NCBI RefSeq assembly: GCF_030730945.1
Contig: NZ_JAVAMS010000005.1
Coordinates: 124,246-188,245, forward strand
Source of the DNA: Aurantiacibacter poecillastricola
GTDB lineage: Bacteria; Pseudomonadota; Alphaproteobacteria; Sphingomonadales; Sphingomonadaceae
Length of the DNA: 64,000 bases
Direction: 5' to 3'
Made by a program: the position numbers and the translations under genes. This document shows positions 4,458 through 35,597 of the stretch, in pieces; within the stretch, counting starts at the first letter, position 1; the number at the start of each line of letters is the position of its first letter. The notes under the pieces were generated by a model that saw only the letters and a program-made list of their open reading frames with translations, was not told the origin of the DNA and did no database searches.

Positions 4458-4564
4458 GCAATCGAACAGATTTGAACATTCGGATTGAGGATATAGTGTA
4501 AACTTTAGGTTTTTTGCGGGTTGCCCGGATCGATTAGAACACATTCGGCACGTAGTATGGCGGA

Positions 4565-8074: not shown

Positions 8075-8167
8075 GGGGCTCTCCGTGCGAATGGGTGGCA
8101 CGAGTTCGACGACTGTGCGCAAGCAGAATTGAGCCTTGCATGGTGGCGATGATTGAAAGCGTTAACC

Positions 8168-13594: not shown

Positions 13595-13603
13595 TGCGAA
13601 AGA

Positions 13604-14773: not shown

Positions 14774-14866
14774 TCCCGGGGCGCTCCATAAAATTGGTTG
14801 CCCCGGAAATGAAGATTTCGCCCGTTAGCGACTACAATCTAGGTTAATCACGTCGGCGCGCCGAAG

Positions 14867-15946: not shown

Positions 15947-15950
15947 GCCC

Positions 15951-17069: not shown

Positions 17070-17084
17070 GGTTTGCGGCGAGGC

Positions 17085-17654: not shown

Positions 17655-17767
17655 TGTGATATCCCCTGCGAGCGACCGATCGACGCCTGCTGGCCGATGC
17701 CTTCGACGCACCTGTTTCTGGATGAACGCGGTTCCCTTCCTTTAACCAGATTAGGTTCCGCACTGCC

Positions 17768-18763: not shown

Positions 18764-18904
18764 CTTGATTAGCGTGCTCTTCGTTCGGCCATGCGTCTGC
18801 TTAGTGGTCGGGCAAAAGCGAGAAACTAACTCTGGTTGGTTTCCTGGAGACTGCGAGCGCTTAGGATCGAACATGAAAGCCGCAATCAGACCAGGAAGAG
18901 GCCC

Positions 18905-20170: not shown

Positions 20171-21108
20171 CAGCGCAAGTGCGACCAGACCACAGCCGTT
20201 CCAAAACGAACGTGAAACCGGTGAAGGTCACTGTCTGCATCTGCACCTTTCGCCGGGAAAGCCTGCGGGAGGCCATCGCATCGGTCTGCGAGCAGCGGCT
20301 CGAGAACCACGACATCATGATCCTCGTCATCGACAATGACGACACGCCTTCGGCAGAGAAGCTCGTGGAAGGGATGCAGCGGAAGTGCCCGGTGCCCATC
20401 CGCTACAAGCACGCGCCGGGTCGCAATATCGCGATTGCCCGCAACGCTGCTCTGGATACGGCCGAGACGCGCTGGCTGGCTTTCATCGACGATGATGAAA
20501 CCGCCGAGCCCAATTGGCTCGCGCGCCTCCTCGACAAGCGCGAAGGGGCCGTTGCGGTAATCGGGCTGTCGCAGGCGATCTATCCGTCCGGCGCGCCGAA
20601 ATGGCTGCCGGAATGCGACTTCCATTCCAACCGGATCACCGGGCGGGTGGAGAACGGCTATACATCCAATGCGCTGCTGGACGGGGACTTCCTGCGGCGT
20701 CTCGGCATCCGCTTCGACCTTTCCCTCGGGCGCACGGGCGGCGAGGACACGGTCTTCTTCCGCGAGATACACGAGGCAGGCGGCAACATCGTCTACGCGC
20801 CGGGCTCGGTAGTGAGGGAGCCGGTCCCCGACACAAGGGCATCAATGCGCTGGGTGCTCAAGCGCAAGTTTCGCAGTGGCCAGACCCACGGGTTGATGCT
20901 GCTGCGCTTTGACAGGGCTTCTGCCGCCCGGCAGTCGATCCTTGCCTCGGCAAAGACGCTTATCTGCCTGTCGGCTGCTACTCTGCTGCTTCCGCTTTCG
21001 GCGCACTGGCGCTCGTGGTTCGCTCGGGCCGCGTTGCATGCGGGCGTGGTGGCCTATCTTGCGGGTTCGCCGGTGGTGGAGGAATATCGCTCGCCTTCTT
21101 CGTCCTGA
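20167..21108 (+). CDS. Glycosyltransferase family 2
   Basis: The 313-residue protein shows V-T-V-C-I-C-T-F-R-R, I-D-N-D-D-T, G-R-N-I-A-I-A-R-N and F-I-D-D-D-E, the GT2 motifs, then G-G-E-D-T-V-F-F. The C-terminal third has hydrophobic helices (about residues 258-276 and 284-298), suggesting membrane association as in ExoO-type succinoglycan transferases. The start is TTG at 20167 or GTG at 20179, both coupled to the preceding gene's stop. Its 3' end overlaps the 3' end of the convergent ExoA-like gene by 131 bases. Confidence 0.8.
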   Translation: MTAQVRPDHSRSKTNVKPVKVTVCICTFRRESLREAIASVCEQRLENHDIMILVIDNDDTPSAEKLVEGMQRKCPVPIRYKHAPGRNIAIARNAALDTAETRWLAFIDDDETAEPNWLARLLDKREGAVAVIGLSQAIYPSGAPKWLPECDFHSNRITGRVENGYTSNALLDGDFLRRLGIRFDLSLGRTGGEDTVFFREIHEAGGNIVYAPGSVVREPVPDTRASMRWVLKRKFRSGQTHGLMLLRFDRASAARQSILASAKTLICLSAATLLLPLSAHWRSWFARAALHAGVVAYLAGSPVVEEYRSPSSS

Positions 21109-22066
21109 TCGCCCGGCCGCGCAGGAAAGCGGCCCAGAACCCTCCTGACCATGCCAGATGCATCAGGGCCGCGGCCGGCCCTGCGAGCACTGCGGACAGG
21201 CTGCGCTGCTTGGCGGCAAGGAGGATGCTGCCGAGCAGGCATAGCGCCAGCCACATTAATGCCGGTAGCGCGATCCACGCCCAAAGCGCTGCGAGCGGCA
21301 CGACGGCAACGGCAGGCGCGACGGCCAGCGGAAGTGCCTGGCGCAGCTTCAGGCGCATGGCATGCTGGCGCACGGTTTGCGCTCTGCCCTTGCCGTAGTG
21401 CCAGTATTGCCGCCAGAGCGCACCGGGCGAACGACGCGGAAGATATTCGATCCGGCACTGGGGCTCTAGCCAGATGCGCGCGCCCGCTTGGCCCATCCGG
21501 TGGTCGAGTTCAGCATCCTCATTGGCCCTCATCTGCTCGTCATATCCGCCCACCTTGCTGAACAGGTGGAGCCGCATGAGGGCGTGATGCCCATGATCGA
21601 CGAACCTGCCCTCCCCGGCTGATCGATGTGGCGATCCGCCCGTGCCCAGCACGGAGTTCTGCGCGGCTGCGACGCCTCGCTGAAACGCGGACCTGCCGAT
21701 TGTGTGCATCGGCACGACAACGCAATGCGCCTCCGTCCGGTCCGCCGCGGCAAGCAGCGAGGCGGCATAGCGGTGCGGATAGAGGCAATGCGCGTCGACT
21801 CGCAGGAGCCATGTGAAGCCCTCGCCGTATTTCGCGACCGCAAGATTGATGCCCGCACTCTGTTTACGCCGCGGGTTGTCCAGCAGCCGCACACGCGGAT
21901 TGATCCGGGCGAAGGCGCGCACGATATCCTGTGACCCGTCATCGCTTCCGCCATCGGCAACAACGACAAGCCCGCTCATCGGATCAGCCAGTAGGACGTG
22001 CAGCAGAGGAATGAGGGTGTTCGCCTCGTTCAGGCAGGGGATTACGGTGAGAACGCCTGTCTTCAT
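20978..22066 (-). CDS. ExoA-like family 2 glycosyltransferase, membrane-anchored
   Basis: The 362-residue protein begins M-K-T-G-V-L-T-V-I-P-C-L-N-E and shows A-D-G-G-S-D-D-G, A-G-I-N-L-A-V and L-R-V-D-A-H. E-D-A-E-L-D-H-R-M and R-R-S-P-G-A-L-W-R-Q-Y-W-H-Y-G-K-G-R follow, the pattern of succinoglycan ExoA-type enzymes. Two to three C-terminal transmembrane helices follow (about residues 240-310). The ATG overlaps the stop of the ExoL-like gene (ATGA at 22063-22066); open frame further upstream lies inside that gene. The last 40 residues are Pro/Arg-rich low complexity and are encoded opposite the neighbouring GT2 gene. Confidence 0.83.
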   Translation of the reverse strand: MKTGVLTVIPCLNEANTLIPLLHVLLADPMSGLVVVADGGSDDGSQDIVRAFARINPRVRLLDNPRRKQSAGINLAVAKYGEGFTWLLRVDAHCLYPHRYAASLLAAADRTEAHCVVVPMHTIGRSAFQRGVAAAQNSVLGTGGSPHRSAGEGRFVDHGHHALMRLHLFSKVGGYDEQMRANEDAELDHRMGQAGARIWLEPQCRIEYLPRRSPGALWRQYWHYGKGRAQTVRQHAMRLKLRQALPLAVAPAVAVVPLAALWAWIALPALMWLALCLLGSILLAAKQRSLSAVLAGPAAALMHLAWSGGFWAAFLRGRAIRTKKASDIPPPPANPQDRPPRPHATRPERTTSASAPKAEAAE

Positions 22067-23196
22067 GCCAGTTCCTCGAGCCGCCCGACGAGAAGGCGGT
22101 GATCTGTCGGGGTGAAAGCGATCGCATCGCGCGGACATTCCTCCACGCGCTTTCGTGCCCGTTCGAAATCGGCGCGGGACATGGATACAAGCCGGTCGAC
22201 CACACCCTCTGCGCGCGCGAGGACGAGGCCCAGCTGGCGCTGCTCCAGCCAGCGGCCGCATTCCACCCCTTCCAGCGCGATGGGTACGGCGCCATGCGCG
22301 ATGCTTTCGTATAACCGGTTGGGCAGCAGCCAGTCGGAATTCAGGCCTTCCTCGAAAAAATCCACGCACCAGGCGAAATCGACCGCGGCATACATGTCCG
22401 GCAGGTCTTCGGGCCGGTAGCGCCCGAGGAAGGTCACGCCTTCCATCTGCCCCACGCGGGCCTCGAGGTCGTCGAGATCGGGATGCGAGGGTATCCCGGC
22501 GATGACGATCTCGATGCCGCCTTCCGCCTCGCGCGCCGCCTTGGCCAGGATGGCGAGGCTTCGCGGACAGCGCAGCATGCCAAACCAGCCGATACGCCAG
22601 GGATTGCTGGCGGCTTGCGCGGTTTCGCCTTGGCCCGGCCAATGCGCCGGAAGCGTGTTCACCTTGTTCTCGACCAGTTCGATATGACCGGCAAAGCTCT
22701 GGAGAGCGCGGAAATATTCGCGTGCATAGGCCGGGGATGAGGTGATGATCATGTTGCAGCGACGCAGCAGCAGCCTTTCGACCAGCCGGAAGGCGGCGCC
22801 CAGCGCATCATCGCGTAACATCAGCCGGTGGATATCGAGGCATTCGTAGACCACCTGCTGCCGCGTCGAGGCGAGGCGACGAGCGAGCACCAGCATTTCC
22901 AGATTGCGGGCGAGAAGGACGTCGGCCCTCGCGGCTTCGCGTAGCCGCCGATCAGGAGAGAGCAATTGCCGCAGCACCAGGGCCAGCCGCTGCAGGAAAC
23001 CCGCATTGTAGGACCGCGCGAGCGGCACTGCCTCGGATTTTTCCACCCTGTCCACCGCCTCCCGGCGCCAGAACCCTGCGAGGCGCACCACGGCGCCGCC
23101 CATGACCAGCGCGGATACCCGCCGGGCGACGGCGGCATCGTTCAGGTCGTGAACGAGGTAACATACCGAAAGGGAGGGGCTGTCGCAGGAAGGCAC
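22063..23196 (-). CDS. ExoL-like glycosyltransferase (GT-B fold)
   Basis: The 377-residue protein lacks a strong GT4 glycine loop. It has V-V-Y-E-C-L-D-I-H-R-L (about residue 113), W-R-I-G-W-F-G-M-L-R-C-P-R-S, G-I-P-S-H-P and L-P-N-R-L-Y-E-S-I-A-H-G-A-V-P-I-A, an order recalling succinoglycan ExoL and related GT-B transferases. It is coupled to the ExoA-like gene, just as exoA and exoL are neighbours in rhizobial succinoglycan loci. The expected role is addition of a mid-unit sugar. The ExoL label is by resemblance and carries some uncertainty. Confidence 0.7.
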   Translation of the reverse strand: MPSCDSPSLSVCYLVHDLNDAAVARRVSALVMGGAVVRLAGFWRREAVDRVEKSEAVPLARSYNAGFLQRLALVLRQLLSPDRRLREAARADVLLARNLEMLVLARRLASTRQQVVYECLDIHRLMLRDDALGAAFRLVERLLLRRCNMIITSSPAYAREYFRALQSFAGHIELVENKVNTLPAHWPGQGETAQAASNPWRIGWFGMLRCPRSLAILAKAAREAEGGIEIVIAGIPSHPDLDDLEARVGQMEGVTFLGRYRPEDLPDMYAAVDFAWCVDFFEEGLNSDWLLPNRLYESIAHGAVPIALEGVECGRWLEQRQLGLVLARAEGVVDRLVSMSRADFERARKRVEECPRDAIAFTPTDHRLLVGRLEELA

Positions 23197-23357: not shown

Positions 23358-25538
23358 TTGGCAAGCATTGCAGGCGATGGGGATATGCCCGGATCGGACA
23401 CGCCGCACCAGACACGCGAACAGGGGACGCCGCGCGAATGGCGGTTTCTCCCTGATCCGCAATATCTGTGGTCCATCTTCCGCCGTCGGCAGTGGACCTT
23501 CGTGCTCGTCACAGGAGTGGTCCTGCTGCTCGGCCTCGCCTGGCTGCTGACCCGGCCCGCTCTCTATTCCGCAACGGCCAGCGTCATGATCGAACCCTCG
23601 CAACCCGACGTGGTGGAGGGCGCGCCCGTTTCGCCGGACCTTGGCCGCGAGACCAATGTGATCGATACCGAGGTGGAGATTCTTTCCTCCCCCCGCCTTG
23701 CCGGGCGTGTGGCGGACGCGCTCGACCTTGCGTCTTACGAGGAATTCGGCGGCGGTGCGCGAGACGTTACCTTCGATGCGGACGAACCCGGCACGCATCC
23801 GCTGGCCGGTGCCGTCCTCAGCCGGACGGATGTGCGGCGCTCGGGCCTCACCTTCCTCATCGATATCACCGCAACAACCCGCGACAGCGAGTTGTCGGCC
23901 GCCCTCGCCAACGAGGTGGCCCGGCAATACCTGCTCCAGCAGGAGGAGACCAAGGGCCAGACGAACGAGGAGGCGCGCGAATTCCTGCAGACCCGGCTCG
24001 TCGAACTGCGCGAGCAGGCGGCACAGGCCGATGCGGCATTGCAGTCCTACAAGGTGCGCAACGGACTGATGAGCGCCGAAGGCGCGACGATGGCCGAGCA
24101 GGAGGTCTCGATCCTGAACCAGGAGATATCCTCGGCGCGGGCGGCGCTGGCGGAGAAGGAAGGACAGCTCGCGGCGGCAAGGCGTCGCGTGAGCCAGGGC
24201 GGCGGCGGTGCCGAAGTACCCGCCGCGCTGCAGTCCGGCACCGTTGCCGAACTGCGCCAGCGCGAGGCACTGCTGACCGGCCAGCTCGCCAATTACGAGG
24301 CGCGTTTCGGCGAACTCCACCCCGAGGTGAGGCAGGCACGCGAGGAACTGGCCGACGTGCGTTCGCAGATCCAGCTGCAGATCGACCGGGTGATGTCCTC
24401 GCTGGCATCCGATGTCGAGGCGGCGCGCTCGCGGGTGGCCTCGCTCGAGGCGAGCCAGTCTCAAGCCGAAGGCGCGCTGATGTCGAACAACGTGGCGCAG
24501 GTCGACCTGATGGACCTGGAACGCAACGCGGAAGCCGCGCGCGCGATCTACCAGACCTTCCTCGAACGCGCGCAGCAGCTGGCCTCGCAGGAGGGCCTCA
24601 TCCGCCCCGACGCCTCGATCGAGAGCCTTGCGCGCGTACCGGGTGGTCCGTCCTCCCCGAACTATCCGATGTGGACGATACTCCTGCTGGTTGCGGCAGT
24701 GACCAGCGGCCTCGCAGCCATCGCGGTGGCGGAATATCTCGACGCGCGCATTCGCACGCGCAGCGACGTGGAGGACCGCGTGGGGCTGGCCTATCTCGGC
24801 GCGGTACCCGATCTCGCTTCCACGGCGGGCAAGAAGGCGCGCGGCATCTCCCCGTGGGATTATCTGCTCGATCATCCGCAATCGACCTTTGCTGAGTCCA
24901 TCCGGGCTCTGCGCTCCTCGCTGATACTGGGCCGGAACACGCGCTCGCGTTCGATCGCCATCACTTCGGCCCTGCCACGCGAGGGCAAATCGACCACCGC
25001 GCTATGTCTGGCTCGGGCCATGGCGGAATCGGGAATCTCCACCGTTCTGGTCGATTGCGACGGACGCCGCCACGCGGTCAGCGACGCGCTGTTGCCGGAA
25101 GGCTGGAACGGGCTGGGTCGCTATCTGAACAGGGAGGGATCGCTGGACGAAGCCCTTTCTAAGGACCCTGCCTCTTCGCTGCATGTCCTGGGCGACAATA
25201 CCGGACGGATCAGCGAGCTGTTCGTGCATCGCCCGTTCCAGAGCCTGCTCGGCGAGCTGCAGGAGCGGTTCCAGATGGTCGTGATCGATACAGCGCCGGT
25301 ACTCGGTATCGCCGAGACCCGCCGCATTGCCTCCGAGGTGGACCGCGTTCTGATGGTGGCGCGCTGGCGCAGCACCGGAATCAGGGCCGTCGACACCGCG
25401 ACCGATATCCTTGCCGAGACCGGAGCCGAGATCGCCGGGCTTGCCCTCACCCGCGTCGACGTGCGCAAATACGCCAGCACCGGCCAACGAGATGTGTATG
25501 GCTATCGCAGCGAGTTCGCCGGCTACTACGCCGACTGA
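23358..25538 (+). CDS. Wzc-like polysaccharide co-polymerase with BY-kinase domain
   Basis: The 726-residue inner-membrane protein has a first transmembrane helix near residues 49-68, a periplasmic Wzz-type domain with long coiled coil (about residues 195-390), and a second helix near residues 435-455. A cytoplasmic P-loop tyrosine kinase follows: Walker A-like P-R-E-G-K-S-T-T, Walker A' V-L-V-D-C-D-G and Walker B V-V-I-D-T-A-P. The C-terminal 25 residues hold five tyrosines, the expected autophosphorylation cluster. It controls chain length and drives export with the Wza-like lipoprotein. The TTG start has GGAGA upstream; an ATG at 23385 is an alternative. It converges back-to-back with the beta-barrel gene (stops adjacent). 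Confidence 0.9.
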   Translation: MASIAGDGDMPGSDTPHQTREQGTPREWRFLPDPQYLWSIFRRRQWTFVLVTGVVLLLGLAWLLTRPALYSATASVMIEPSQPDVVEGAPVSPDLGRETNVIDTEVEILSSPRLAGRVADALDLASYEEFGGGARDVTFDADEPGTHPLAGAVLSRTDVRRSGLTFLIDITATTRDSELSAALANEVARQYLLQQEETKGQTNEEAREFLQTRLVELREQAAQADAALQSYKVRNGLMSAEGATMAEQEVSILNQEISSARAALAEKEGQLAAARRRVSQGGGGAEVPAALQSGTVAELRQREALLTGQLANYEARFGELHPEVRQAREELADVRSQIQLQIDRVMSSLASDVEAARSRVASLEASQSQAEGALMSNNVAQVDLMDLERNAEAARAIYQTFLERAQQLASQEGLIRPDASIESLARVPGGPSSPNYPMWTILLLVAAVTSGLAAIAVAEYLDARIRTRSDVEDRVGLAYLGAVPDLASTAGKKARGISPWDYLLDHPQSTFAESIRALRSSLILGRNTRSRSIAITSALPREGKSTTALCLARAMAESGISTVLVDCDGRRHAVSDALLPEGWNGLGRYLNREGSLDEALSKDPASSLHVLGDNTGRISELFVHRPFQSLLGELQERFQMVVIDTAPVLGIAETRRIASEVDRVLMVARWRSTGIRAVDTATDILAETGAEIAGLALTRVDVRKYASTGQRDVYGYRSEFAGYYAD

Positions 25539-26792
25539 TCAGTAGACCAGCCGCATCCCGATGGTGAACCGGTTGCGGGCGAACTCGCGGAAGAAGTCGC
25601 CATCGGCCGAGCGGTCGAAGCGCTCGGCCCGCGCATAGACCCTGAGGTTGCGATTGACGAGGTAGGTGGCCGACGCGTCGAGCTGGTACTCGGACGCATT
25701 GTCGTCGATCAGTCCGACGGTATCGATCCTGGCAACCCGGGCGCGGCCGATGACAACGAGATTTCGCAGCAACTCGTGCTCCACCGTCACTTGTGCCTGG
25801 CTGCGCAGGTTGCCCGCCGTCAGCCGCGATCCGCCTTCCTCAACCGACCGATTGGCGTCGAGCTCCACCGAAGTCAGCGGAGTGACCGCCCAGCGTAGAT
25901 TGGCACCAAAGGAAACACCCGATGGATCGTTCAGCTGTGGATCGTCGATATTGCGAGTGAGCCACCCGGCGCGGATTTCGCCGCGAATAAGGCTGGTGAG
26001 CTCCATTCTGACGCCTGCCTCCAGCTTGACGCCGGTGGAATCCCGGTCAAGCGGGAACGGCAGGCCTTCGTCGGCAGTGTAATCAAGCCGGTCCACCTCC
26101 ACCCGTGCGAGGACGCCGACACGGGGGGAGACGTCATAGATCCCCTGCCCCGAAGCGCGCACATAGGTCGTGTCCCGGAAGTCCTGCTCCAGCGGTTCGC
26201 CGGTGAACGTCCTTGTATCCTGGAAATCCTGCCGGGTGGCCTGCACCTCGCCCTGCACGCGTAGCGGATCGAAATCGCGCCAGTAGGTCGCACCGGCGCT
26301 GTAACGCATGAAGCGCGTCCGTTCGCGCGCCTGGTTGAAATTGGCCGGGCTGGTGCGATCTTCGGCGAGATAATCGACCGAAGCGTAGGCATCGACGGCA
26401 CTGCGCCTGTCGATGTCCAGCGTGCCGTTGGTGCGCAACCCTGCCTCGAGCTCGTCTTCCCTCGGAAACTCGGCGTGCACGGTACGCTGGACATAGGCGT
26501 TCGCCCGCAGCCGGTGCCGCTGCCAGAGCGAACGCGCCACTACCTGCCCGCGCAGGGTGAGGATCGTATCGTCCGCAGTGCTATCGGGCAGGGCCAGCAC
26601 ATTGTCGTCATACTCGATGCGCAATTCCGCTTCGGGCCTGATGACGAACGACCCGACCCGGCCGCCGACCGGATCGAATTCCGGCCGGTCGCGCTCCGAT
26701 GGCCTGGGCGGAAGGGAAACGGATTGTGCGTTGGCGGTGCTTGCCAGAAGCGCCGCGATGACAGGCGCCAGCGCCAGGGAACTTGTTTTCAT
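25539..26792 (-). CDS. Outer-membrane beta-barrel protein of the EPS cluster (BBP2-type)
   Basis: The 417-residue protein has a signal peptide (cleavage after about A-N-A-Q, residue 23). A repetitive alternating hydrophobic/polar pattern follows, with many short strands of the type R-L-R-A-N-A-Y-V-Q and E-L-R-I-E-Y-D-D-N-V. It ends in F-T-I-G-M-R-L-V-Y, an outer-membrane barrel end with aromatic terminal residue. Proteins of this sort (putative beta-barrel porin 2/VpsM-like) accompany short Wza-type exporters and may form the outer-membrane pore. The stop is directly adjacent to that of the Wzc-like gene. Confidence 0.72.
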   Translation of the reverse strand: MKTSSLALAPVIAALLASTANAQSVSLPPRPSERDRPEFDPVGGRVGSFVIRPEAELRIEYDDNVLALPDSTADDTILTLRGQVVARSLWQRHRLRANAYVQRTVHAEFPREDELEAGLRTNGTLDIDRRSAVDAYASVDYLAEDRTSPANFNQARERTRFMRYSAGATYWRDFDPLRVQGEVQATRQDFQDTRTFTGEPLEQDFRDTTYVRASGQGIYDVSPRVGVLARVEVDRLDYTADEGLPFPLDRDSTGVKLEAGVRMELTSLIRGEIRAGWLTRNIDDPQLNDPSGVSFGANLRWAVTPLTSVELDANRSVEEGGSRLTAGNLRSQAQVTVEHELLRNLVVIGRARVARIDTVGLIDDNASEYQLDASATYLVNRNLRVYARAERFDRSADGDFFREFARNRFTIGMRLVY

Positions 26793-26855: not shown

Positions 26856-28691
26856 CTATACTGGGTTAGCGAACTCGCGCCCTTCGGCATCGAGCATCGC
26901 GGCGAGGCGTCCGTTGCGGCGCGACAGGTCTTGCGGCGTGCCGCATTCCACGATCGTGCCCGCTTCCATCGCGACGATCCAGTCCGCGATACCCACCGCG
27001 GAGGGGCGATGCGCGATCATCAGGATCGTTGTCTGCCCGCGCAATTGCCGAAGCGTCTCGTTGACCGCATCCTGGCTCGCCCAGTCGAGGGAGGCAGTCG
27101 CCTCGTCGAGGATGAGCAATTCGGGCTGGCGCAGCAGCGCGCGGGCCAGCGCCACGCGTTGCCGCTGACCGCCGGAAAGAGCTGTTCCATTATCACCTAT
27201 GATCAGGTCCAGCCCACAGCGATGACCGCGGACGAAATCGACCCCTGCTTGATCCAGCGCCTGCCACAGGGCGGCATCTTCAGCTTCAGGGCAGCCGAGC
27301 CGTAGATTGTCTGCCACGCTGGCATTGAGCAGGAAAGCGTCCTGCGGCACATAGGCGACGCTGCGCCGCCACGCACGTCTGTCTTCTTCCGGCAGCGTAC
27401 GCCCATCAAGTGCGATGGTCCCGCTTGAGGGCAAGAGCAATCCGGCCGCGAGATCCGCCAGTGTGCTCTTGCCGCAACCCGAGGGTCCGATGACCGCGGT
27501 GATCTGCCCGGCGGGAAGGCGCAGGCTCACGCCTTGCAGCACGGGCGGACTGTCCGGCCCCGGATACCGATAGCCGACCTCGTCGAATGCCAGTTCGGAC
27601 TCGAGGCGGATCGGAACGCCGGAAGGGAGCGCTTCGATCTCACGGCTGGCCCGGCACTCCGCCTCGAACCGACGAATCGTTTCGATGACCGGAAGGTTCA
27701 GCAGCAGGTCTTGCAGGCTCGACTGGATACCGAGGAAACGGGGGGCGATACGCGCCAGCACGAGCAGGAAGACCAGCAGGCTCGCCAGCGGGGTCTCGAA
27801 CACGGCGATGCCGAGGAAAACGAGAGTGGCGATGGCCAGCGCGCTGACGGCTTGCGATACGATTGTGGCCAGCGACGTGAGACGCATGTAACCCACAGCC
27901 TCGCCCTGCACGGCTTCCAGGTTGCGGGCCAGCCTTTCGCGGTAGCCCTCTTCCATCGCGTGGATCTTCGCCGTCTTCATGCCGTCGAGAAATTCCGCGA
28001 CAGTGCGGAACTGGTTGCGCTTGTTGACCGTGCGTTCATGGCCAAAGGCGGTAGCCCGCCGCCGCACCGGGGCCAGCACGACCAGCACCAGTGACCCGAG
28101 ACCCATCGCGACCAGTGTCATGGGAGGAGAGATTGCAGCCGATACGATGAGGTAGATGCACAGCAGGACAGCGGTCTGAACCAACATGATCATGGCGAAG
28201 ATAGCGCTGTAGACCCGCTCTGCGTCGGTTGTGAGAAGGTGGTGCAGATCGCTGCGACGCTGGCGCGACAGGAATTCCCAGCTTGCCCCGCCAATCGCGG
28301 CGAACATGCCAAGGCGGACGCGGTTGAATATATGGAACAGCAGGCGGGCGACATAGATGTTCTTCGCTCGCATGAAGAATGCGTGCACGATGACGAGGGC
28401 GACCAGCAGGGCGAGAACTGCCAGCAGCGGGACCTCGACCGATCCAACCGGGCCGAGGGGAAGATCGACGATGTTGCTCGCGCCAGGCTCCACCAGCGAC
28501 AGCAGCGGGATGATCAGGACGATCGAGAGGCCTTCGGTGACGCCCCCGAGAACCAGCAGCAACAGGGCGACTGCCAGTCGCCGATGCTCGCCCTGTGCAG
28601 CGAACAGCGCGAAGGCGTGGATCGTGCGCAGTTTCTGCCCCTCCGGCGCGGTCTCGCCTGTCGGCGACTCAGGATCCGGATTGCGCTGCAT
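26856..28691 (-). CDS. ABC transporter, permease-ATPase fusion (lasso peptide exporter, D-type)
   Basis: The 611-residue half-transporter has an N-terminal six-helix ABC exporter domain (first helices at about residues 39-60 and 87-110). The C-terminal ATPase shows Walker A G-P-S-G-C-G-K-S-T near residue 417, a Q-loop, signature L-S-G-G-Q-R-Q-R, Walker B L-L-I-L-D-E-A-T and the H-loop I-A-H-R. As the last gene of the lasso operon it would export the mature peptide and confer self-immunity, the known role of McjD-type proteins. No C39 leader-peptidase domain is present, consistent with a separate B2 peptidase. It overlaps the kinase gene by 23 bases. An EPS-related export role cannot be excluded but is less likely. 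Confidence 0.82.
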   Translation of the reverse strand: MQRNPDPESPTGETAPEGQKLRTIHAFALFAAQGEHRRLAVALLLLVLGGVTEGLSIVLIIPLLSLVEPGASNIVDLPLGPVGSVEVPLLAVLALLVALVIVHAFFMRAKNIYVARLLFHIFNRVRLGMFAAIGGASWEFLSRQRRSDLHHLLTTDAERVYSAIFAMIMLVQTAVLLCIYLIVSAAISPPMTLVAMGLGSLVLVVLAPVRRRATAFGHERTVNKRNQFRTVAEFLDGMKTAKIHAMEEGYRERLARNLEAVQGEAVGYMRLTSLATIVSQAVSALAIATLVFLGIAVFETPLASLLVFLLVLARIAPRFLGIQSSLQDLLLNLPVIETIRRFEAECRASREIEALPSGVPIRLESELAFDEVGYRYPGPDSPPVLQGVSLRLPAGQITAVIGPSGCGKSTLADLAAGLLLPSSGTIALDGRTLPEEDRRAWRRSVAYVPQDAFLLNASVADNLRLGCPEAEDAALWQALDQAGVDFVRGHRCGLDLIIGDNGTALSGGQRQRVALARALLRQPELLILDEATASLDWASQDAVNETLRQLRGQTTILMIAHRPSAVGIADWIVAMEAGTIVECGTPQDLSRRNGRLAAMLDAEGREFANPV

Positions 28692-29637
28692 CCGCCTCTA
28701 CCAGGTCGACGAGCGCGGAGATGCGATCGAGATCGCGTGGCACGCGCAGGATGGAAATGGGCGTCTGCTGCGCAACGAGACCCGCCAGCAGCATATGCTG
28801 CGAGGCCGCCTTGCGCCACATCGCCTGCGGGCCGAATCGGCAGACATAGGAGAAGCGCAGCAAGGCCTTGAAGCGCTCGGTTCCGTTTAGCGGAACCTGT
28901 TCCAGACGGTCACCGCGGGCAAGCAGGTAGAACCTGGAAGGCGGCATGGGGGCGCTGGCAAAACCTTCTGCCAGCATGAAGCGATCCTTGTCGATCACCG
29001 CCTTGACTTGTGGCCTCCGTTGGGCGCGCACCAGGGCGATCGCGCCGGCCGCATCCGCCGCCAGCTTCACCTGTCCGAATGCCGGGGCGATTGTGCTTTC
29101 CTGCGTGGCGGGATCGGTTCTTATCGCGATAAGGTCGTCGGTAAGCAGGTGGTGGCCGGCGGACACCAGTGCCGCCGCGGTCGTGGATTTGCCGGCGCCC
29201 TTGTCGCCGAGGAATGCCACCGCCTTTCCGGCGACGGAGAGCGCGCTTCCGTGCAGGACGAGGTTGCCGCGGCTCTGGAGCACCAGCCCCATGACCGGAC
29301 CCAGTAGCGCAAAGCCCATCAGGTCGGGTCCGACTCCGGGAGCAGGCAATACCTCGATCCGGCACCCATCGTGCACGGTAAACTCGCCCACTTCCCACCA
29401 GCGCAGGAACTGCTCGCGCTCCGTGAAGGTGAAGCGATTGTCCTCTGCCGGGTCCCACTCCCCCTCCATCAGTTCTATAGACAGGTCGCACGGGGCCGAG
29501 GCTGAACCGGACGTCAACTCGGGCAGTGGTACCTGCGAGGCGATGCCGAGACCGAAAGCGGAGTAAATGTGCCAGGGATGATCCTCGGCGCGTTCGCGCC
29601 TCGCCGTCATGTCGATTGCTTCGCTCCCGATGATCAT
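28669..29637 (-). CDS. HPr-kinase-like kinase of the lasso locus
   Basis: The 322-residue protein has a poorly conserved N-terminal half. A C-terminal HprK-type P-loop kinase domain follows: H-G-S-A-L near residue 149, Walker A G-D-K-G-A-G-K-S-T near residue 163, and T-D-D-L-I-A-I near residue 185, the acidic segment expected for catalysis. Kinases of this type in lasso clusters phosphorylate the C-terminal Ser of the precursor (established for the paeninodin kinase), and the precursor here ends in Ser. The ATG overlaps the cyclase stop (ATGA at 29634-29637). True HPr kinase is unlikely because there is no PTS context and the N-terminal half is atypical. Confidence 0.8.
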   Translation of the reverse strand: MIIGSEAIDMTARRERAEDHPWHIYSAFGLGIASQVPLPELTSGSASAPCDLSIELMEGEWDPAEDNRFTFTEREQFLRWWEVGEFTVHDGCRIEVLPAPGVGPDLMGFALLGPVMGLVLQSRGNLVLHGSALSVAGKAVAFLGDKGAGKSTTAAALVSAGHHLLTDDLIAIRTDPATQESTIAPAFGQVKLAADAAGAIALVRAQRRPQVKAVIDKDRFMLAEGFASAPMPPSRFYLLARGDRLEQVPLNGTERFKALLRFSYVCRFGPQAMWRKAASQHMLLAGLVAQQTPISILRVPRDLDRISALVDLVEADAAQSGS

Positions 29638-31427
29638 GCCGCGTATCCTGTGGCGCGCTCACGGCTGGCCGCGTTGGCGCCCCGAGCTTGCAACCAGGTC
29701 GCAAGTGCCACTACCCGCCAGATCGCCTGCACGCGGTGGCCGGGGGTGTCGTCGGGGCAGGAGCGCATGTGCTGCCAGGCCGACTGTACTTCCGGCAGAT
29801 CCACATAGTCCCCGAGTGCATCCTCGCCGTCGACGAGCAGCGCGTCGATGCGCTCGCCATCGCGCCTCGCCATGCCTTCGGCCAGGGCAGGTCCGAAGTT
29901 GAGCTTGTCGCGCCGGTTGCGCACGGCAGAGGGAAGCAGGTCCTTCAGGGCCCGCCGCATGATGAGCCTCGAGCACCCTGCCGAGAGCTTGTCCTGTGCC
30001 GGAACGCCCACGCAGAACTCCACCAGTTTGCGGGTCCAGAAAGGATAGCGTCCAACCATGCCGTTGCGAGCATAGCTGCTCGCCATCACCTCGAAAGCGT
30101 GTGTCTGGATGGGAGCGGTCAACGACCGGATGTGCTGCTCGGCCTCGCCGGCCCGCGGATTGCGCCTGGCCGCGCTCTGTAAGGCGGCAAGCTGTGCCTC
30201 CCGCGCGAATTGCGGGGCAATGAAATTGGCCCGGCCGCCGCCAAAGGTTTCGCCCCGCCGCATCATCAGCCTTGCCGCCAGCCTTCCGCCGGGGAGTCCA
30301 TGACGGGCAGACAGGGCTGCGAAAAGTAACCCGCGAGGCTGACCGAAATTGGCGGCCGCGCCTTCGCATTCATGCCAGGCCCGTCGATATTTCCGGCGCA
30401 TGAACAGTTCGTCGAGCAGTCCGTATCCGTGAGAGACGACCTCGTCGCCGCCATGCCCGTCGAGCATCGCCCCGAGGCCGTCGGCTCGGGCCATTCCCAG
30501 CAGGGGTTGCATGCAGGCGAGGTTAGGCGCCAGGAAAGGCTCCCCGTGTGCCATCACGCAGTCCTGCAGGTGCTCCAGCGGGGCATAGCCATCGGCAAGG
30601 TAGATGCTGCTTTCGCACCCGCCCTTGTGCAGCACGGCATTCACATAGGATCTCTCGTCCCATTCGGGTTTCGAGGAGAAGGCAAGTGAATAGGTCCGCA
30701 CGGGACGTGTCTGTGCGGCGTCCGGCGCGGTAAGAGCACAGACGATGGATGAGGAGTCGAGACCGCCGCTCAAGAGAGCTCCGGTTTTCGCCCTGCTGCT
30801 GTCGCTAGTCACCTCTTGCACGGCCTGCAGGAACAGGTGGCGAAACTCCTCGGCCCGTTCCTCCGCGCTGCCAGGAACCTCGGCGGGCCGCAGTTGCCAG
30901 TAGCGGCGAAGGGTTATCTCCCCATGCCGGAACAACAACGAATGTGCGGCCGGCAACCGGGCGATCTCGCAGAAGAAGGTGGAGTCGTCGTCGAACACGG
31001 TCCCGGCCAGGAACTGTGCCACGGCAGCATCGCGAACACTGTCGGATGGGCGCTGCAGCTTGCCGAGATTGCTGGCAAACAGCAGTCCGTCCTTGTCGCC
31101 GCGATAGTAGAAGGGCCGGATGCCGAACCTGTCCCGCGCACAGAACAGGCTATGCGAACGTGCATCCCATAGGGCGAATGCGAACTCGCCTTCCAGATGC
31201 TCGACGCATTCTGGCCCCCACCGGCGCCAGGCGAACAGGATCACCTGTGCGTCGGTATAGCCATGCGAACCCAGCTGTGCGTCGATCCGCCCGCGATCAT
31301 GGAGTACGGCATCGGCGGCAACCGTGACGGGACCCGCGCTGGCCACGCCGGAGGCCTTGTCGCAGCACAATTCGGGCTTCCGTTTCAGCGAGATTTCGCA
31401 CGGTACTGCGCCGAACAGGCCCGGCAT
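29634..31427 (-). CDS. Lasso cyclase, asparagine-synthetase-like (C protein)
   Basis: The 597-residue protein has an N-terminal glutamine-amidotransferase-like domain (A-L-W-D-A-R, R-D-R-F-G-I-R-P-F-Y-Y). The Cys nucleophile after Met is replaced by Pro, so it should not hydrolyse glutamine. The synthetase domain carries the ATP-pyrophosphatase loop L-S-G-G-L-D-S-S near residue 222 and D-G-H-G-G-D-E near residue 319. Lasso cyclases adenylate the side chain of the ring Asp/Glu and join it to the core N-terminus. It begins 3 bases after the B2 gene and overlaps the kinase gene by 4. Context with PqqD-like and B2 proteins makes ordinary asparagine synthesis unlikely. Confidence 0.86.
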   Translation of the reverse strand: MPGLFGAVPCEISLKRKPELCCDKASGVASAGPVTVAADAVLHDRGRIDAQLGSHGYTDAQVILFAWRRWGPECVEHLEGEFAFALWDARSHSLFCARDRFGIRPFYYRGDKDGLLFASNLGKLQRPSDSVRDAAVAQFLAGTVFDDDSTFFCEIARLPAAHSLLFRHGEITLRRYWQLRPAEVPGSAEERAEEFRHLFLQAVQEVTSDSSRAKTGALLSGGLDSSSIVCALTAPDAAQTRPVRTYSLAFSSKPEWDERSYVNAVLHKGGCESSIYLADGYAPLEHLQDCVMAHGEPFLAPNLACMQPLLGMARADGLGAMLDGHGGDEVVSHGYGLLDELFMRRKYRRAWHECEGAAANFGQPRGLLFAALSARHGLPGGRLAARLMMRRGETFGGGRANFIAPQFAREAQLAALQSAARRNPRAGEAEQHIRSLTAPIQTHAFEVMASSYARNGMVGRYPFWTRKLVEFCVGVPAQDKLSAGCSRLIMRRALKDLLPSAVRNRRDKLNFGPALAEGMARRDGERIDALLVDGEDALGDYVDLPEVQSAWQHMRSCPDDTPGHRVQAIWRVVALATWLQARGANAASRERATGYAA

Positions 31428-31430
31428 CGC

Positions 31431-31865
31431 TCAGGTCAGTTCCGTGATACAGGTGTAATCGCCCGGCCCGCCGCCCAGCAGGATCTCGTCTTCACACACC
31501 AGCCATGCATGAGCGCCGAATTCCCGGTTTGCGCCGCGCACACCGATGATAATGCGGACAGGGTGGCCCGAGCGGGCGAGAATATACTGGGCCGAAACGG
31601 CCTGCGTCAGGCAAGTCGCACCCGGAATGGCAGGCGCCAAGCGGCGCACGCGGCGCGCTACTGCCCGCGCATAATGGCGCGAGGGCGCGGCAGGGCCAGC
31701 GGCGGGCAACCTCTGCCTCAGCCAGCCATAGCCCTTGAGCGACAGCAGCAAGCGAACTGCCGCTATAACAAAAAAAGCAATGAGACAGGCACGCAATTCG
31801 GTTGCGACATGCGCAATCCTGCCGGGCGCGCCCGCGTTACTGATCACGGTGGGCCAGGCGAGCAT
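31431..31865 (-). CDS. Lasso peptide leader peptidase (B2, transglutaminase-like)
   Basis: The 144-residue protein has one N-terminal hydrophobic helix (about residues 28-45). A transglutaminase-like catalytic segment follows: C-L-T-Q-A-V-S-A-Q-Y-I-L near residue 85 with the Cys nucleophile, I-I-I-G-V-R, then F-G-A-H-A-W-L-V-C-E-D containing the His, with a nearby acidic residue. This is the standard lasso B2 (PF13471-type) signature. The enzyme removes the leader after the Thr-x junction, guided by the B1 protein. It overlaps the B1 gene by 29 bases in another frame; a GTG at 31847 would shorten that overlap. Confidence 0.86.
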   Translation of the reverse strand: MLAWPTVISNAGAPGRIAHVATELRACLIAFFVIAAVRLLLSLKGYGWLRQRLPAAGPAAPSRHYARAVARRVRRLAPAIPGATCLTQAVSAQYILARSGHPVRIIIGVRGANREFGAHAWLVCEDEILLGGGPGDYTCITELT

Positions 31866-32112
31866 CGATCATCTGGCCAAGCAGTTCATCGACATCGGCC
31901 GCGCAGCGCTCGCTCGTCACCGTGAACCGTTCGCTCACCGCAAGGCTGATGTCCTGCGCGCTGGATCGCTCCTGCAGCGCTTCCCAAACGGCAGCCCCCA
32001 CCTTGTTGAGGCTGTAATAGGTGCTGGTCTGCAGGTTGAGCAACGCCAGGCCATCACCCAGTTCGCAGGCTACGACATCCGGATCGGGCCGGATGGTTAC
32101 GTTACCGTCCAT
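31837..32112 (-). CDS. PqqD-family RiPP recognition element (lasso B1)
   Basis: The 91-residue protein has the PqqD fold pattern: N-terminal strands around residues 14-35 (L-G-D-G-L-A-L-L-N-L-Q-T-S-T-Y-Y-S-L-N), then N-x-V-G-A-A-V-W-E-A-L and a helical half ending in L-L-G-Q-M-I-D-A-R-L. RREs bind the precursor leader, particularly the Tyr-Pro-Leu motif, and hand it to the peptidase and cyclase. The split B1/B2 arrangement differs from the fused B protein of classical proteobacterial systems such as microcin J25. It is 100 bases downstream of the precursor gene with a hairpin in between. Confidence 0.87.
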   Translation of the reverse strand: MDGNVTIRPDPDVVACELGDGLALLNLQTSTYYSLNKVGAAVWEALQERSSAQDISLAVSERFTVTSERCAADVDELLGQMIDARLAHRDQ

Positions 32113-32140
32113 TTGAAACTCCCTGTCGGGGAAAGAATAC

Positions 32141-32186
32141 GGGGGGCGCAGGCGCTGTTGCGCCCTGAGGGGATCACGCGCCCCCC
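32141..32186 (-). terminator. Hairpin between lasso precursor and B1 genes (probable attenuating terminator)
   Basis: GGGGGGCGC at 32141-32149 pairs exactly with GCGCCCCCC at 32178-32186, and inside it GGCGC-TGTT-GCGCC (32151-32164) forms a second small stem. In the minus-strand transcript the outer stem is followed by a short U-rich stretch (GUAUUCUUU). Such hairpins commonly sit after a RiPP precursor gene to stop most transcripts, giving excess precursor over enzymes. It may also protect the precursor mRNA 3' end. Confidence 0.55.
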
Positions 32187-32212
32187 ATCTCTTTCGCGGT
32201 TAGCCGACCCTC

Positions 32213-32374
32213 TTAGGAAAGGCCGCCGTCGGGTCCACAGGTGAGATCACCGAAGGGCGTGCCCGCGGGGAACTGGGCATCAAGGGCGTCAGGGCAACCT
32301 GAAGCCTGGGTCAGCCTTTCGAACGTACCCAGTTCCTCCAGTGTCGGCGATACGTATTCTTCTCTAGTATTCAT
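32213..32374 (-). CDS. Lasso peptide precursor (A), 53 residues
   Basis: This gene was found by translating the gap upstream of B1. The 23-residue leader carries Y7, P10, L12, G16 and T22 in the exact spacing Y-x2-P-x-L-x3-G-x5-T-x recognised by split B1/B2 systems. Cleavage after residue 23 would leave a 30-residue core starting A-S-G-C-P-D-A-L-D. A ring between the Ala1 amine and the Asp9 side chain is predicted. The tail (residues 10-30) contains F-P-A-G-T-P-F-G-D-L-T, a second Cys at core position 23, and ends G-G-L-S. The ATG has GAGGAG at 6 bases spacing. Core C4 and C23 could form a disulfide. The C-terminal Ser is the likely kinase target. Alternative ring starts (Ser2-Asp9, Gly3-Asp9) cannot be excluded. 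Confidence 0.88.
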   Translation of the reverse strand: MNTREEYVSPTLEELGTFERLTQASGCPDALDAQFPAGTPFGDLTCGPDGGLS

Positions 32375-32402
32375 GACGAACTCCTCTTTTAGATCGAGGC
32401 AT
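32364..32402 (-). CDS. 12-codon minicistron overlapping the lasso precursor start
   Basis: ATG at 32400-32402 is preceded by a perfect AGGAGG at 5 bases spacing, the strongest Shine-Dalgarno in the region. It opens a 12-residue frame (M-P-R-S-K-R-G-V-R-H-E-Y). The frame reads through the precursor's own GAGGAG and ends with TAG at 32364-32366, overlapping the precursor ATG in another frame by 11 bases. This is the layout of a leader cistron that couples or gates translation of the next gene. The peptide itself is unlikely to have a function. Confidence 0.45.
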   Translation of the reverse strand: MPRSKRGVRHEY

Positions 32403-32557
32403 TTACACCTCCTAAGTCCTTATGAAGACAAACCTCGATACAGTGAACGGAAAACACCCCAATTTACGCTTCGAAATCAGGTTTGTAACTTGCATTATGA
32501 TATGGATCTGTGGGGCGGTTTAGACTGTACGTCCAAAGGGGCTCCCGGAAGATCATA

Positions 32558-33631
32558 GTGACACAGACCGTAATTGACTGCCTGGTCGATATCGTCGGCT
32601 GCGCCCTGGCCCCCGATGGCCGGGACCGGTCGCTGCCCTTGGAAATGGCGTGCGAAGCGGAGCTTGTCGCGGCGGTCGATGCAAACCGTATCTGGCCCGC
32701 CTACCTCAAGGGGCTCAGTCATTTCGACATTGATCCGGGTTCGGACTTGAGGGCAGTGGCCGCTCACGCATCTGCGCGGGTGATGCATCACAACGGCAAA
32801 TCGCTTGCCACTGCACGACTCGTCATGCCGCAATTGGCCGAGAACGGGATCAACGCCGTCGTAATCAAGGGCGCGCTACGGCAGGCAAGCGTCTATGGCA
32901 CGCCCATGTACCGCCAGGCCAACGATCTCGACATCCTCGTATCTTCGGCGGACTTTCGGGCCGCAGCTGAATTGCTTGGGGAGTTGGGCTTCGCACCACA
33001 GGCCCGCTGCGAAAACCGCTGGTGGACCTCTGCCCTTGGCGAGCAGCATTTCGATTCGGTCAATCCCGGCCTTGGCCAGATCGACCTGCACCATCGCATC
33101 CAGCAGCCCGGCCTCCCGGGCCCGCGCTCAGCCTCGGCCTGGCTTGCCGATCCGGCGCATATGAAGCTGGGCGAATCCAAGATTTCCATTCCCACGGAGG
33201 AGAAAGCCATTCTGCTGGGGTGTCTCAACCTGGTAAAGGCAATACACCACCGCGAACCGGCGGCGATGTACGCGTTCGAATTTGCCAGCGCCCTGCTGGC
33301 CAGCAACCGTGAGGGTCGCGAATGCCTTGTACGGTTCGCCCGCGATCAGAAGCTGATGGCTGTGCTGCTGTTCTGCCACACGGCCACGGAAGCGGCATTC
33401 CGCATCGCGCTGCCCGCTCTCTCCTTGGAAGACGGCGACACGCTCGACACGTCGGACATGCCCTTGCCGGAAATGATCTTTGCGCTGCCCCGACCGGATA
33501 CTCACCTGCCGCGCCATCGCAACCTGCTTTGGACCTTGTGCGGTGCAACCAACCTTCTTGCGAGACTCACGCGGTTCTCGTTTGAGGCATCTCGCTACGC
33601 GCATGCGGAAACCCGCAGACTGCTGGCCTAA
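32558..33631 (+). CDS. Nucleotidyltransferase-family protein of the lasso locus
   Basis: The 357-residue protein has the uncharacterised NTP_transf_5 (PF14907-type) core: V-I-K-G-A-L-R-Q, Y-G-T-P-M-Y-R-Q-A-N-D-L-D-I-L-V, where D-x-D supplies metal ligands. Q-I-D-L-H-H follows about 55 residues later with a third Asp. It is divergent from the precursor gene with a shared 183-base promoter region. Homologues accompany kinase-containing lasso clusters, and in the pseudomycoidin system the nucleotidyltransferase acts on the phosphorylated peptide. GTG at 32558 has GGAAGA upstream; the GTG at 32510 has none. Substrate here is unproven. Confidence 0.76.
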   Translation: MTQTVIDCLVDIVGCALAPDGRDRSLPLEMACEAELVAAVDANRIWPAYLKGLSHFDIDPGSDLRAVAAHASARVMHHNGKSLATARLVMPQLAENGINAVVIKGALRQASVYGTPMYRQANDLDILVSSADFRAAAELLGELGFAPQARCENRWWTSALGEQHFDSVNPGLGQIDLHHRIQQPGLPGPRSASAWLADPAHMKLGESKISIPTEEKAILLGCLNLVKAIHHREPAAMYAFEFASALLASNREGRECLVRFARDQKLMAVLLFCHTATEAAFRIALPALSLEDGDTLDTSDMPLPEMIFALPRPDTHLPRHRNLLWTLCGATNLLARLTRFSFEASRYAHAETRRLLA

Positions 33632-34313: not shown

Positions 34314-35597
34314 ATGAAACGAATTTTGTTCCTCGCTGCGACTTTCGTATTCCTTGGGACTGCCACCATGCTTTTGCCAGGTTCCGGCATGCAGGACTTG
34401 GCCCGTGGCTCAACCACTGAGCAACCCTTCCGCAATTTCGATTTCGACCGCGGGAAACGCTATCCCGAAAGAGCGCGGATAGCGATCGAGGACGTGCAGG
34501 TTGCGCCGGGCGCAGACGCCGTCCACGTTGCTGTGACCCTCGACAGACCCACTCCAAACACCGTGGTTGCACGAGTCCTTACTCGAAACGGAAGCGCGAA
34601 GGAGGGCGAGGATTTCGAGCGGGTCGACCGCCACGTCGTGTTCCGTCCGGGCGACCCCCTAGTCCAGACAGTTCGCGTCCCTCTCAAGAGGATTGCCGCG
34701 GGCGAGCGTTTCGAGCTGATCTTTCCGATCACGGTGAGCGGTGCTCGCAGGGATGGGGCGGCGGGCGAGATTGTTGCAGTGGAAGGAGCGCCGCCGACGG
34801 TCGCCGCGACCGCAGGTTTTCGCGAGGCGCTTACCTTCCAGCCGCGCGGCGAACCGCGCTACGAACTGGATGTACGCACTGTGCAGTGGAGCGCCGCAGG
34901 CGGGCGCGATAGCTGGTCGACGGCCCTGGCGCACGGTCGCACCCAGCCCGCGAACGGGGAAACCGGCTTGTATCTAGATCCAGTGCTGCACCCCGAAGCC
35001 GAGCCGCCGGTTCGCAGGGATGGTGGTGCGCTCGTGCTGCACAGCCAGCAGCTGGAGAATCCGATCGAGCACGAAGGCACGGTATTTCGCCATGGAGCCG
35101 TGGTGTTGTCCGGTCGGCGCATGCCCGAAACACAGGTGCTGTACGGCCAGTACGAATGGATCGCGCGGATGCCGAACCGGCGCGGTGCGTGGCCTTCTCT
35201 GTGGCTGGTGGCAACCGGCGGCTGGCCTCCCGAAATCGATGTTTTCGAGGCGTTCGGCTACGCGCAGGACTGGGACTTCGACAATGATATCAGCGCGAAC
35301 CTGCACGGCGGCCCCCGCGGGCGGCGAAATTTCACCGTTCCCATGCGCACGGACGGCGCGGCCCTATACGGCCTGACCGGACTTTCGCGCGATTTCCATT
35401 CCTACGCCGTCGACATCGCGCCGGACTTCATCACCTGGTTCATCGACGGTCGCGAAGTCTATCAGGCCGTCAATCCGTTTCACCAGGAGGCGTTCTATCC
35501 GATCATGACGGTGGCTGTGAAGAGTCCGGACGAGTTTACAGGTGGCTCTGCCGAAATGCGTGTCCACTCTTTCAAGGTCTGGTCGGACGCGTCCTGA
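34314..35597 (+). CDS. Secreted glycoside hydrolase family 16 protein
   Basis: The 427-residue protein has an N-terminal signal/anchor (about residues 3-23) and a Calx-beta-like strand-rich domain (about residues 55-145, with G-S-A-K-E-G-E-D-F-E). A GH16 jelly-roll domain follows. The catalytic motif E-I-D-V-F-E near residue 306 supplies the nucleophile and acid/base Glu, preceded by W-P-S-L-W-L. GH16 enzymes cleave beta-1,3/1,4-glucans, agars and succinoglycan (ExoK/ExsH), so it may trim or release the polysaccharide made by the surrounding genes. The ribosome-binding site is weak; the ATG is chosen for the signal peptide. Confidence 0.83.
   Translation: MKRILFLAATFVFLGTATMLLPGSGMQDLARGSTTEQPFRNFDFDRGKRYPERARIAIEDVQVAPGADAVHVAVTLDRPTPNTVVARVLTRNGSAKEGEDFERVDRHVVFRPGDPLVQTVRVPLKRIAAGERFELIFPITVSGARRDGAAGEIVAVEGAPPTVAATAGFREALTFQPRGEPRYELDVRTVQWSAAGGRDSWSTALAHGRTQPANGETGLYLDPVLHPEAEPPVRRDGGALVLHSQQLENPIEHEGTVFRHGAVVLSGRRMPETQVLYGQYEWIARMPNRRGAWPSLWLVATGGWPPEIDVFEAFGYAQDWDFDNDISANLHGGPRGRRNFTVPMRTDGAALYGLTGLSRDFHSYAVDIAPDFITWFIDGREVYQAVNPFHQEAFYPIMTVAVKSPDEFTGGSAEMRVHSFKVWSDAS

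Follow-up and report, generated by a model that had tools for sequence, protein, structure and literature searches.

We found that a 64-kb stretch of the Aurantiacibacter poecillastricola genome (hereafter the window, meaning the whole stretch; coordinates are window positions unless a locus is named) carries a lasso peptide operon beside a cluster of exopolysaccharide genes. The lasso identity of the locus is strongly supported by its genes and motifs. We propose that this is a kinase-tailored lasso operon, which is probably co-inherited with the exopolysaccharide of the cell and acts at it; the role at the polysaccharide is proposed on the basis of gene linkage and the conservation of the tail of the peptide. 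Relatives with the same tail tend to be found near slime-polysaccharide genes, a hint that the peptide serves in the slime layer and is not an ordinary antibiotic. A first-pass annotation made from the sequence had already read the locus as a lasso cluster. The parts of it that we tested held, but it was incomplete, because it missed the exopolysaccharide setting, the likely C-terminal serine target of the kinase, and the confinement of a cysteine pair to a three-member subtype.

Linkage was measured as the distance to the nearest Poly_export gene, with a threshold of 20 kb, by searching whole genomes with the Pfam models of export and sugar-transferase genes. The aligned set contained 17 precursors, that of the window and 16 relatives, from 13 genomes (the window's included) and three plasmids. 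The relatives were discovered by similarity of the cyclase or the precursor, never through polysaccharide genes. As the control, we used places with a match to the leader peptidase B2 in the same bacterial family. There were 133 such places in 101 genomes, of which 116 were kept, and removal of 6 precursor-family loci left 110; the 17 excluded places were in 15 genomes outside the export-gene search, 11 of which were dropped, mostly as fragmented. An export gene was present within 20 kb in 12 of 13 precursor genomes (best 35 of 53 export genes, at least about 76 bits) and at no fewer than 5 of the 110 control places (best 150 of 222 export genes in 80 control genomes, at least about 73 bits), giving a Fisher p of 5e-12. 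We estimated that the 72 unlisted export genes could add one or two to the control count. Because five of the 13 precursor genomes belong to one genus, the test was also made after collapsing by genus or clade, and 8/9 remained within 20 kb (p 1e-8). When the threshold was set at 30 kb, the control count was at least 12/110 and the precursor genomes were still 12/13. By chance, 1-6% of each of nine precursor-family genomes lies that close to an export gene.

The initiating sugar transferase was within 28 kb in all 13 precursor genomes (computed by hand, with no control for this gene) and no more than 10 kb from the locus on both Rhodobacterales plasmids. In a frame of about 18-19 kb, the five g31 loci showed a GH16 gene alone; their export genes are about 17 kb away, therefore the small frame understates the linkage. 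Eight other lasso-type loci (L087 and L090-L096) were also inspected. L091 was in an exopolysaccharide cluster, L090 had one long sugar transferase, and the remaining six showed no polysaccharide markers in about 18-19 kb. L091 (G194:C8) had no detected kinase, and its putative precursor is at 12582-12782 on the opposite strand, ending SINVLGGGDSQFSLLAPS. L087 (G000:C1:786000-804000) is a second lasso-type locus in the genome of the window, with B1, a kinase-like gene, cyclase, B2, an ABC gene and a weak nucleotidyltransferase match; no precursor was recognised there, and its layout is like that of L090.

Several points weigh against the proposed tie to the polysaccharide. The control counts B2-domain matches, some of which are non-lasso, and relies on the best 150 of 222 export genes. 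In one precursor genome, G013, the contig with the precursor lacks an export gene, and its end is 16.6 kb from the precursor; the contig does have a sugar transferase gene (about 7 kb from the precursor) and a Wzc-like gene (about 8 kb from it). The setting is not exclusive to this family, because the lasso-type locus L091, whose precursor is different, is also linked to exopolysaccharide genes. One of the two precursors on the Sulfitobacter plasmid (L028) ends in TP instead of Ser. In the cyclase tree, which had 26 rows with three actinobacterial loci as outgroups, the 15 precursor-family rows were on one side of a branch with a weak support of 67/56, present in 68% of bootstrap trees. What the operon makes, how it is modified and what it does are inferred here from genes, motifs, conservation and linkage. 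Finally, the linkage could come from a shared insertion hot-spot.

The last point leads to an alternative, that the operon makes an ordinary antibacterial lasso peptide and is present in the exopolysaccharide island merely because the island is a hot-spot of accessory-gene gain and loss. The distribution of the operon is in line with this idea: the cyclase was found at E 1e-60 in 2/40 genomes of the genus (own genome included), copies are plasmid-borne in Paracoccus and Sulfitobacter, and a phage-type tyrosine integrase gene (3088-4479) borders the exopolysaccharide cluster on its outer side. The patchy occurrence and the plasmid copies indicate transfer, and a patchy, transfer-driven history was also described in Bacilli (PMC13381572). 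Against this, other B2 places of the bacterial family were rarely near the listed export genes, and BLAST showed no lasso cyclase at three of the at least five that were within 20 kb (L086, L088 and L089). Antibacterial cores are generally expected to change fast, and the strong conservation of the core tail is contrary to this expectation. We regard this explanation as unlikely. At L086, L088 and L089, B2-like proteins are encoded beside Wza/Wzc genes, and polysaccharide loci may thus use the B2 fold for something other than lasso biosynthesis.

At E 1e-70, the cyclase was found in 7/397 genomes of the bacterial family and 4/396 of the order (own genome included in each). A profile of 14 precursors at E 1e-3 detected 13/397 genomes of the bacterial family, ten strongly and three through the leader only; the latter (G007, G079 and G412; E 3e-4 to 9e-4, leader part alone matched) were left out of the precursor family. 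Across the class, the precursor profile matched 2/337 genomes, namely the window's own and one weak leader-only match. Plasmid searches added precursors from Paracoccus, Sulfitobacter (two, unannotated) and Nostoc. A plasmid search with the cyclase at 1e-40 found nothing, though cyclases are encoded on the plasmids of Paracoccus (31% identity) and Sulfitobacter (28%). Genome contigs scanned with the cyclase yielded 5 distant actinobacterial loci. In the fetched genomes, genes were called with a simple open reading frame picker and named by similarity to the window genes, and Pfam was run on the window genes. In the cyclase tree, the window, L017 and L026 were grouped at 85/91, and G013, which is of the window's genus, was grouped with L044 and L046 at 100/99.

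Alignment of the 17 precursors showed that leader Tyr, Pro, Gly and Thr(-2) and core Asp9, Thr16 and Pro17 are invariant, and that Phe12, Thr22, the final Ser and a Glu of the leader are almost invariant. Members of the family typically have the core GGxxGxxLDAxFPAGTPxSDLTFS. The first-pass annotation had suggested a resemblance of the tail to those of other sphingomonad lasso precursors; we found this resemblance, and it extends to Rhodobacterales, Nostoc and Priestia. The annotation had also named a lack of homologues beside lasso enzymes as a finding that would refute its reading; lasso enzymes adjoin 16/17 precursors, the exception being Nostoc. On the Nostoc plasmid (NZ_CP151101.1), no lasso enzymes were detected within 8 kb of the precursor (L030 7992-8138), which could be an orphan or depend on processing in trans. 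The two Sulfitobacter precursor genes (L028, 5658-5798 and 7992-8129) are absent from the gene table of the record as distributed. The nucleotidyltransferase gene was present at 13/13 genomic loci and on the Paracoccus plasmid; at L027 and L045 it was detected by iterated profile only (112 and 213 bits), and on the Sulfitobacter plasmid an annotated nucleotidyltransferase is about 14 kb from the locus.

The precursor gene of the window (A) is, as the first-pass annotation had it, a 53-codon gene on the minus strand whose leader has the pattern Y7-x2-P10-x-L12-x3-G16-x5-T22-x. The leader is residues 1-23, and the predicted core is residues 24-53, ASGCPDALDAQFPAGTPFGDLTCGPDGGLS. The peptide matched NF033521 (lasso_leader_L3) at 26 bits (cut-off 19); a Pfam search at E 0.1 gave no match. 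A relaxed leader pattern applied to peptides of up to 90 amino acids found no second peptide of this kind in the window, with A alone matching. We compared A with the precursors of L017 (G385) and L026 (G611) over 47 codons from the leader Tyr. Differences at the three codon positions were 11/6/35 between A and L017, with 27 silent and 10 changed codons, and 6/6/26 between A and L026, with 22 silent and 8 changed codons; between L017 and L026 they were 8/8/21, and here 12 codons differed silently and 13 were changed. The codon-position differences of A fit a translated gene under purifying selection. The computed monoisotopic masses of the core are 2818.22 for the lasso, 2816.21 with a disulfide, 2896.17 with a disulfide and one phosphate, and 3058.22 when a hexose is added to these.

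The acceptor that had been proposed for a nine-residue ring, Asp9, is invariant in 17/17 precursors, which agrees with that prediction. Asp6 was considered as the acceptor and rejected, because outside the cysteine subtype it is not conserved, whereas Asp9 is invariant. This subtype is long-tailed and consists of the window, L017 and L026, in which an 8-residue end starting at Cys23 replaces FS. All three members have both Cys4 and Cys23, and the other 14 precursors have no Cys. Cys4 of the window peptide falls in the predicted ring and Cys23 in the tail, which is the sequence pattern of class III, so that a ring-tail disulfide between Cys4 and Cys23 is predicted, making the peptide class III-like. 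To our knowledge, the cysteine subtype would be the first case in which a class III-like peptide is accompanied by kinase and nucleotidyltransferase genes.

The C-terminal residue is Ser in 16/17 precursors (Ser30 in the window), and in the L017 core the final residue is the sole Ser. Because of this conservation and the sole Ser of L017, Ser30 is the likely kinase target. The C-terminal Ser is also the substrate of PadeK, ThcoK, SyanK and PsmK (PMC9266682). BsfK phosphorylates Ser3 (PMC10368454), and Ser2 or Ser3 was accordingly considered as the target; both were rejected, as L017 has Ser at neither position.

The enzymes encoded next to A agreed with the first-pass description of B1, B2, cyclase, HprK-like kinase, ABC exporter and a divergent nucleotidyltransferase, as judged by Pfam and NCBIfam matches (Table 1). 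The same-strand gaps are 100 nucleotides between A and B1, -29 between B1 and B2, 3 between B2 and the cyclase, -4 between the cyclase and the kinase, and -23 between the kinase and the ABC exporter, which argues for one operon. The cyclase and B1 scored under the curated NCBIfam cut-offs (NF033535, 429.5 against 525; NF033530, 55.8 against 70) and are thus diverged members. In the kinase, His129, Lys150, Ser151, Asp167 and Asp168 are invariant (15 rows, window included). K120-G121 and D139-x-D141 of the nucleotidyltransferase are invariant in 11 rows, and the same residues were found in a 14-row alignment with numbering that begins 45 residues further on. In B2, His119-Ala-Trp is invariant in 15 rows and the Cys is kept in all 14 rows covering that site, reading the alignment by eye. 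B2 and the nucleotidyltransferase had no convincing relative of solved structure by sequence. The locus has two features of a lasso cluster, a precursor with a YxxPxL...G...T-x leader and adjacent B1, B2 and Asn-synthetase-like cyclase genes. It also has the marks of kinase tailoring, which are an HprK-like kinase with its His, Lys and Asp-Asp and a core ending in Ser. A nucleotidyltransferase gene accompanies the cluster, as in the pseudomycoidin type, a likeness at the level of gene content.

Table 1. Lasso operon and exopolysaccharide genes of the window.
Feature	Position	Strand	Evidence
A, lasso precursor, 53 amino acids	32213..32374	-	NF033521, 17-row alignment, codon-position differences
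B1, leader-recognition protein (PqqD/RRE)	31837..32112	-	PF05402 61.3 bits; TbiB1 5v1u match E 1.5e-07
B2, leader peptidase	31431..31865	-	NF033537 71.7 bits (cut-off 33)
C, lasso cyclase (Asn-synthetase-like)	29634..31427	-	PF00733 154.1 bits; best NCBIfam NF033535
K, HprK-like peptide kinase	28669..29637	-	PF07475 35.6 (cut-off 33.3); aligns with HprK 1jb1
D, ABC exporter (MsbA-like)	26856..28691	-	PF00005 and PF00664 above cut-off
N, NTP_transf_5 nucleotidyltransferase, divergent	32510..33631	+	PF14907 75.6 bits (cut-off 31.2)
BBP2 outer-membrane beta-barrel	25539..26792	-	PF10082 283.9 bits
Wzc-like protein	23358..25538	+	PF02706 34.4 (cut-off 25.5); PF13614 27.3 (cut-off 27)
Wza-like polysaccharide export protein	17085..17711	-	PF02563 88.1 bits
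Initiating sugar transferase	7397..8122	-	PF02397 203.4 bits
Wzy/O-antigen-ligase-like protein	4648..5964	-	PF04932 35.7 (cut-off 31.7)
Glycosyltransferase block (GT2, GT61, GT4), including the export gene	10485..23196	.	Pfam
Block member without Pfam match	13604..14773		
Last block member	22063..23196		PF13579 27.9 bits, under cut-off 29.7
GH16 glycan hydrolase, other side of lasso operon	34314..35597	+	PF00722 53.7 (cut-off 22)

The exopolysaccharide cluster of the window extends from about 4.6 to 26.8 kb and codes for a polymerase/ligase-like protein, a sugar transferase, GT2, GT4 and GT61 glycosyltransferases, Wza-like and Wzc-like proteins and BBP2. A flippase was not identified in this cluster. 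The BBP2 gene follows the exporter gene after 63 nucleotides on the same strand, and the order is the same in L017 and L026. Homologous exopolysaccharide genes occur in G385 and G611, at about 40-66% identity; the sets of the other relatives are partly different. A Calx-beta stretch of the GH16 protein scored under the cut-off (PF03160, 24.7 against 27). Elsewhere in the window, we noticed a Toprim protein (333-1253) and a fusion protein (41089-43050) of a protein-isoaspartate methyltransferase domain and a domain of the erythromycin-esterase family. Between 22 and 36 kb, all RNA families scored under their cut-offs.

From these genes, the following pathway can be proposed. B1 would bind the precursor, and the HprK-like kinase would phosphorylate its C-terminal Ser. 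B2 would cleave after Thr-Gln, so that the core begins at Ala, and the cyclase would close the Ala1-Asp9 ring around the tail. The peptide would then be exported by the ABC protein, and in this subtype the Cys4-Cys23 disulfide would form outside the cytoplasm. The nucleotidyltransferase would decorate the phosphate with a sugar, as reported for PsmN, or with a nucleotide. The product would be released where the polysaccharide exits the cell, and would work in or on the matrix.

A bolder version of this role is that the peptide is built into the exopolysaccharide as a structural component. The phosphorylated Ser would be joined to a sugar through the nucleotidyltransferase and a glycosyltransferase of the cluster, with threaded peptides decorating, capping or cross-linking the polysaccharide and the conserved tail serving as the recognition site in Alphaproteobacteria and Bacillota. 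Such a covalent joint is suggested by the addition of a hexose to phosphoserine by PsmN of pseudomycoidin (PMC9266682) and by the recurrent nucleotidyltransferase gene, and we consider it quite improbable.

The conserved tail and the linkage would also be expected if the peptide were a secreted signal or regulator of matrix production instead of a matrix component. On a Priestia plasmid, two SinI-family anti-repressor genes are near a paeninodin-family cluster, and in Paenibacillus a lasso gene and an exopolysaccharide gene were reported to be up-regulated synchronously (PMC13381572). The operon, however, contains no recognisable receptor or regulator gene, and this explanation seems to us rather unlikely. 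It is also conceivable that nothing is made, the operon being silent or decayed. The bsf lasso cluster was reported silent in culture (PMC10368454), and we found no sigma-70 promoter or terminator pattern in 31800-32700; the promoter result says little, because shuffled sequences give 0.3 on average. Decay would be at odds with the fact that all frames are open, catalytic residues are kept and codon differences from the window gene are mostly silent, and we judge a silent operon very improbable. Our preferred reading remains a kinase-tailored lasso peptide probably acting at the exopolysaccharide. If this is true, lasso peptides would have a function other than to kill cells or block receptors. 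The tail motif and polysaccharide setting shared by Alphaproteobacteria and Bacillota provide two groups in which a matrix role can be tested, and the cysteine subtype could show the timing of disulfide formation relative to export.

The linkage as such is not new, because it was already reported for Bacilli: lasso clusters of the paeninodin kind, and those of a linear sister family, are often in capsular polysaccharide loci (PMC13381572, Nat Commun, May 2026). In that paper, both families are called restricted to Bacillota, the role of paeninodin-type lasso peptides is stated as unknown, and a role in biofilm is given as speculation. Our literature search, for which subscription literature was mostly out of reach, met no report of a lasso-polysaccharide linkage outside Bacilli. 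What is new here is the alphaproteobacterial branch, the tail common to a Priestia peptide, and the cysteine subtype. A 2021 review described the precursors of the two phyla as sharing little beyond the C-terminal Ser (PMC8498205). The Priestia plasmid peptide, a member of the NCBI paeninodin family, has a tail in common with the window family, TDAAFPTHTPKGDLTF; it ends TDAAFPTHTPKGDLTFES, and the G013 core ends TDAVFPLDTPKGDLTFS. It was related to the precursor family by tblastn (E 2e-4) and by profile comparison (probability 97, leader included). Beside the two SinI-family genes, the neighbours of its cluster include galU and a polysaccharide gene.

The Bacilli kinase-tailored clusters for paeninodin and pseudomycoidin likewise have A, split B1/B2, C, an HprK-like kinase and often a nucleotidyltransferase, with a C-terminal Ser and a frequent location near polysaccharide loci (PMC13381572, PMC9266682). 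The gene order differs, being A-B1-B2-C-K-D with divergent N in the window and C-A-(gene annotated aldolase)-B1-B2-D in Priestia. The leader has Tyr in 17/17 of our precursors, in contrast to the Trp of the paeninodin motif (PMC13381572). The paeninodin model NF033524, which the Priestia peptide matched at 57.7 bits, gave no match to the window peptide at E 0.1 or to 9 relatives at E 1, where HMMER filters drop most matches above 0.1. Membership of the window peptide in the paeninodin family proper was therefore rejected, by the model and by the leader Trp. The cysteine pair and the long tail also set the window peptide apart from paeninodin and pseudomycoidin.

Among Proteobacteria, SyanA/SyanK of Sphingobium yanoikuyae is also a kinase-tailored lasso system with a C-terminal Ser (PMC9266682, PMC8498205), a likeness in the type of tailoring and the final residue. 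BsfA/BsfK of Bradymonas has split B, kinase and N genes as here, but differs in that its kinase acts on Ser3, its leader has Ile(-2), and its core ends in Asp (PMC10368454). Class III lasso peptides were very few in a 2022 review, namely BI-32169 and 9401-LP1 (PMC9266682). Both have one ring-tail disulfide, which in the window peptide is predicted only. The 9401-LP1 cluster consists of A-D genes only (PMC9266682), to which the window cluster adds kinase and nucleotidyltransferase genes.

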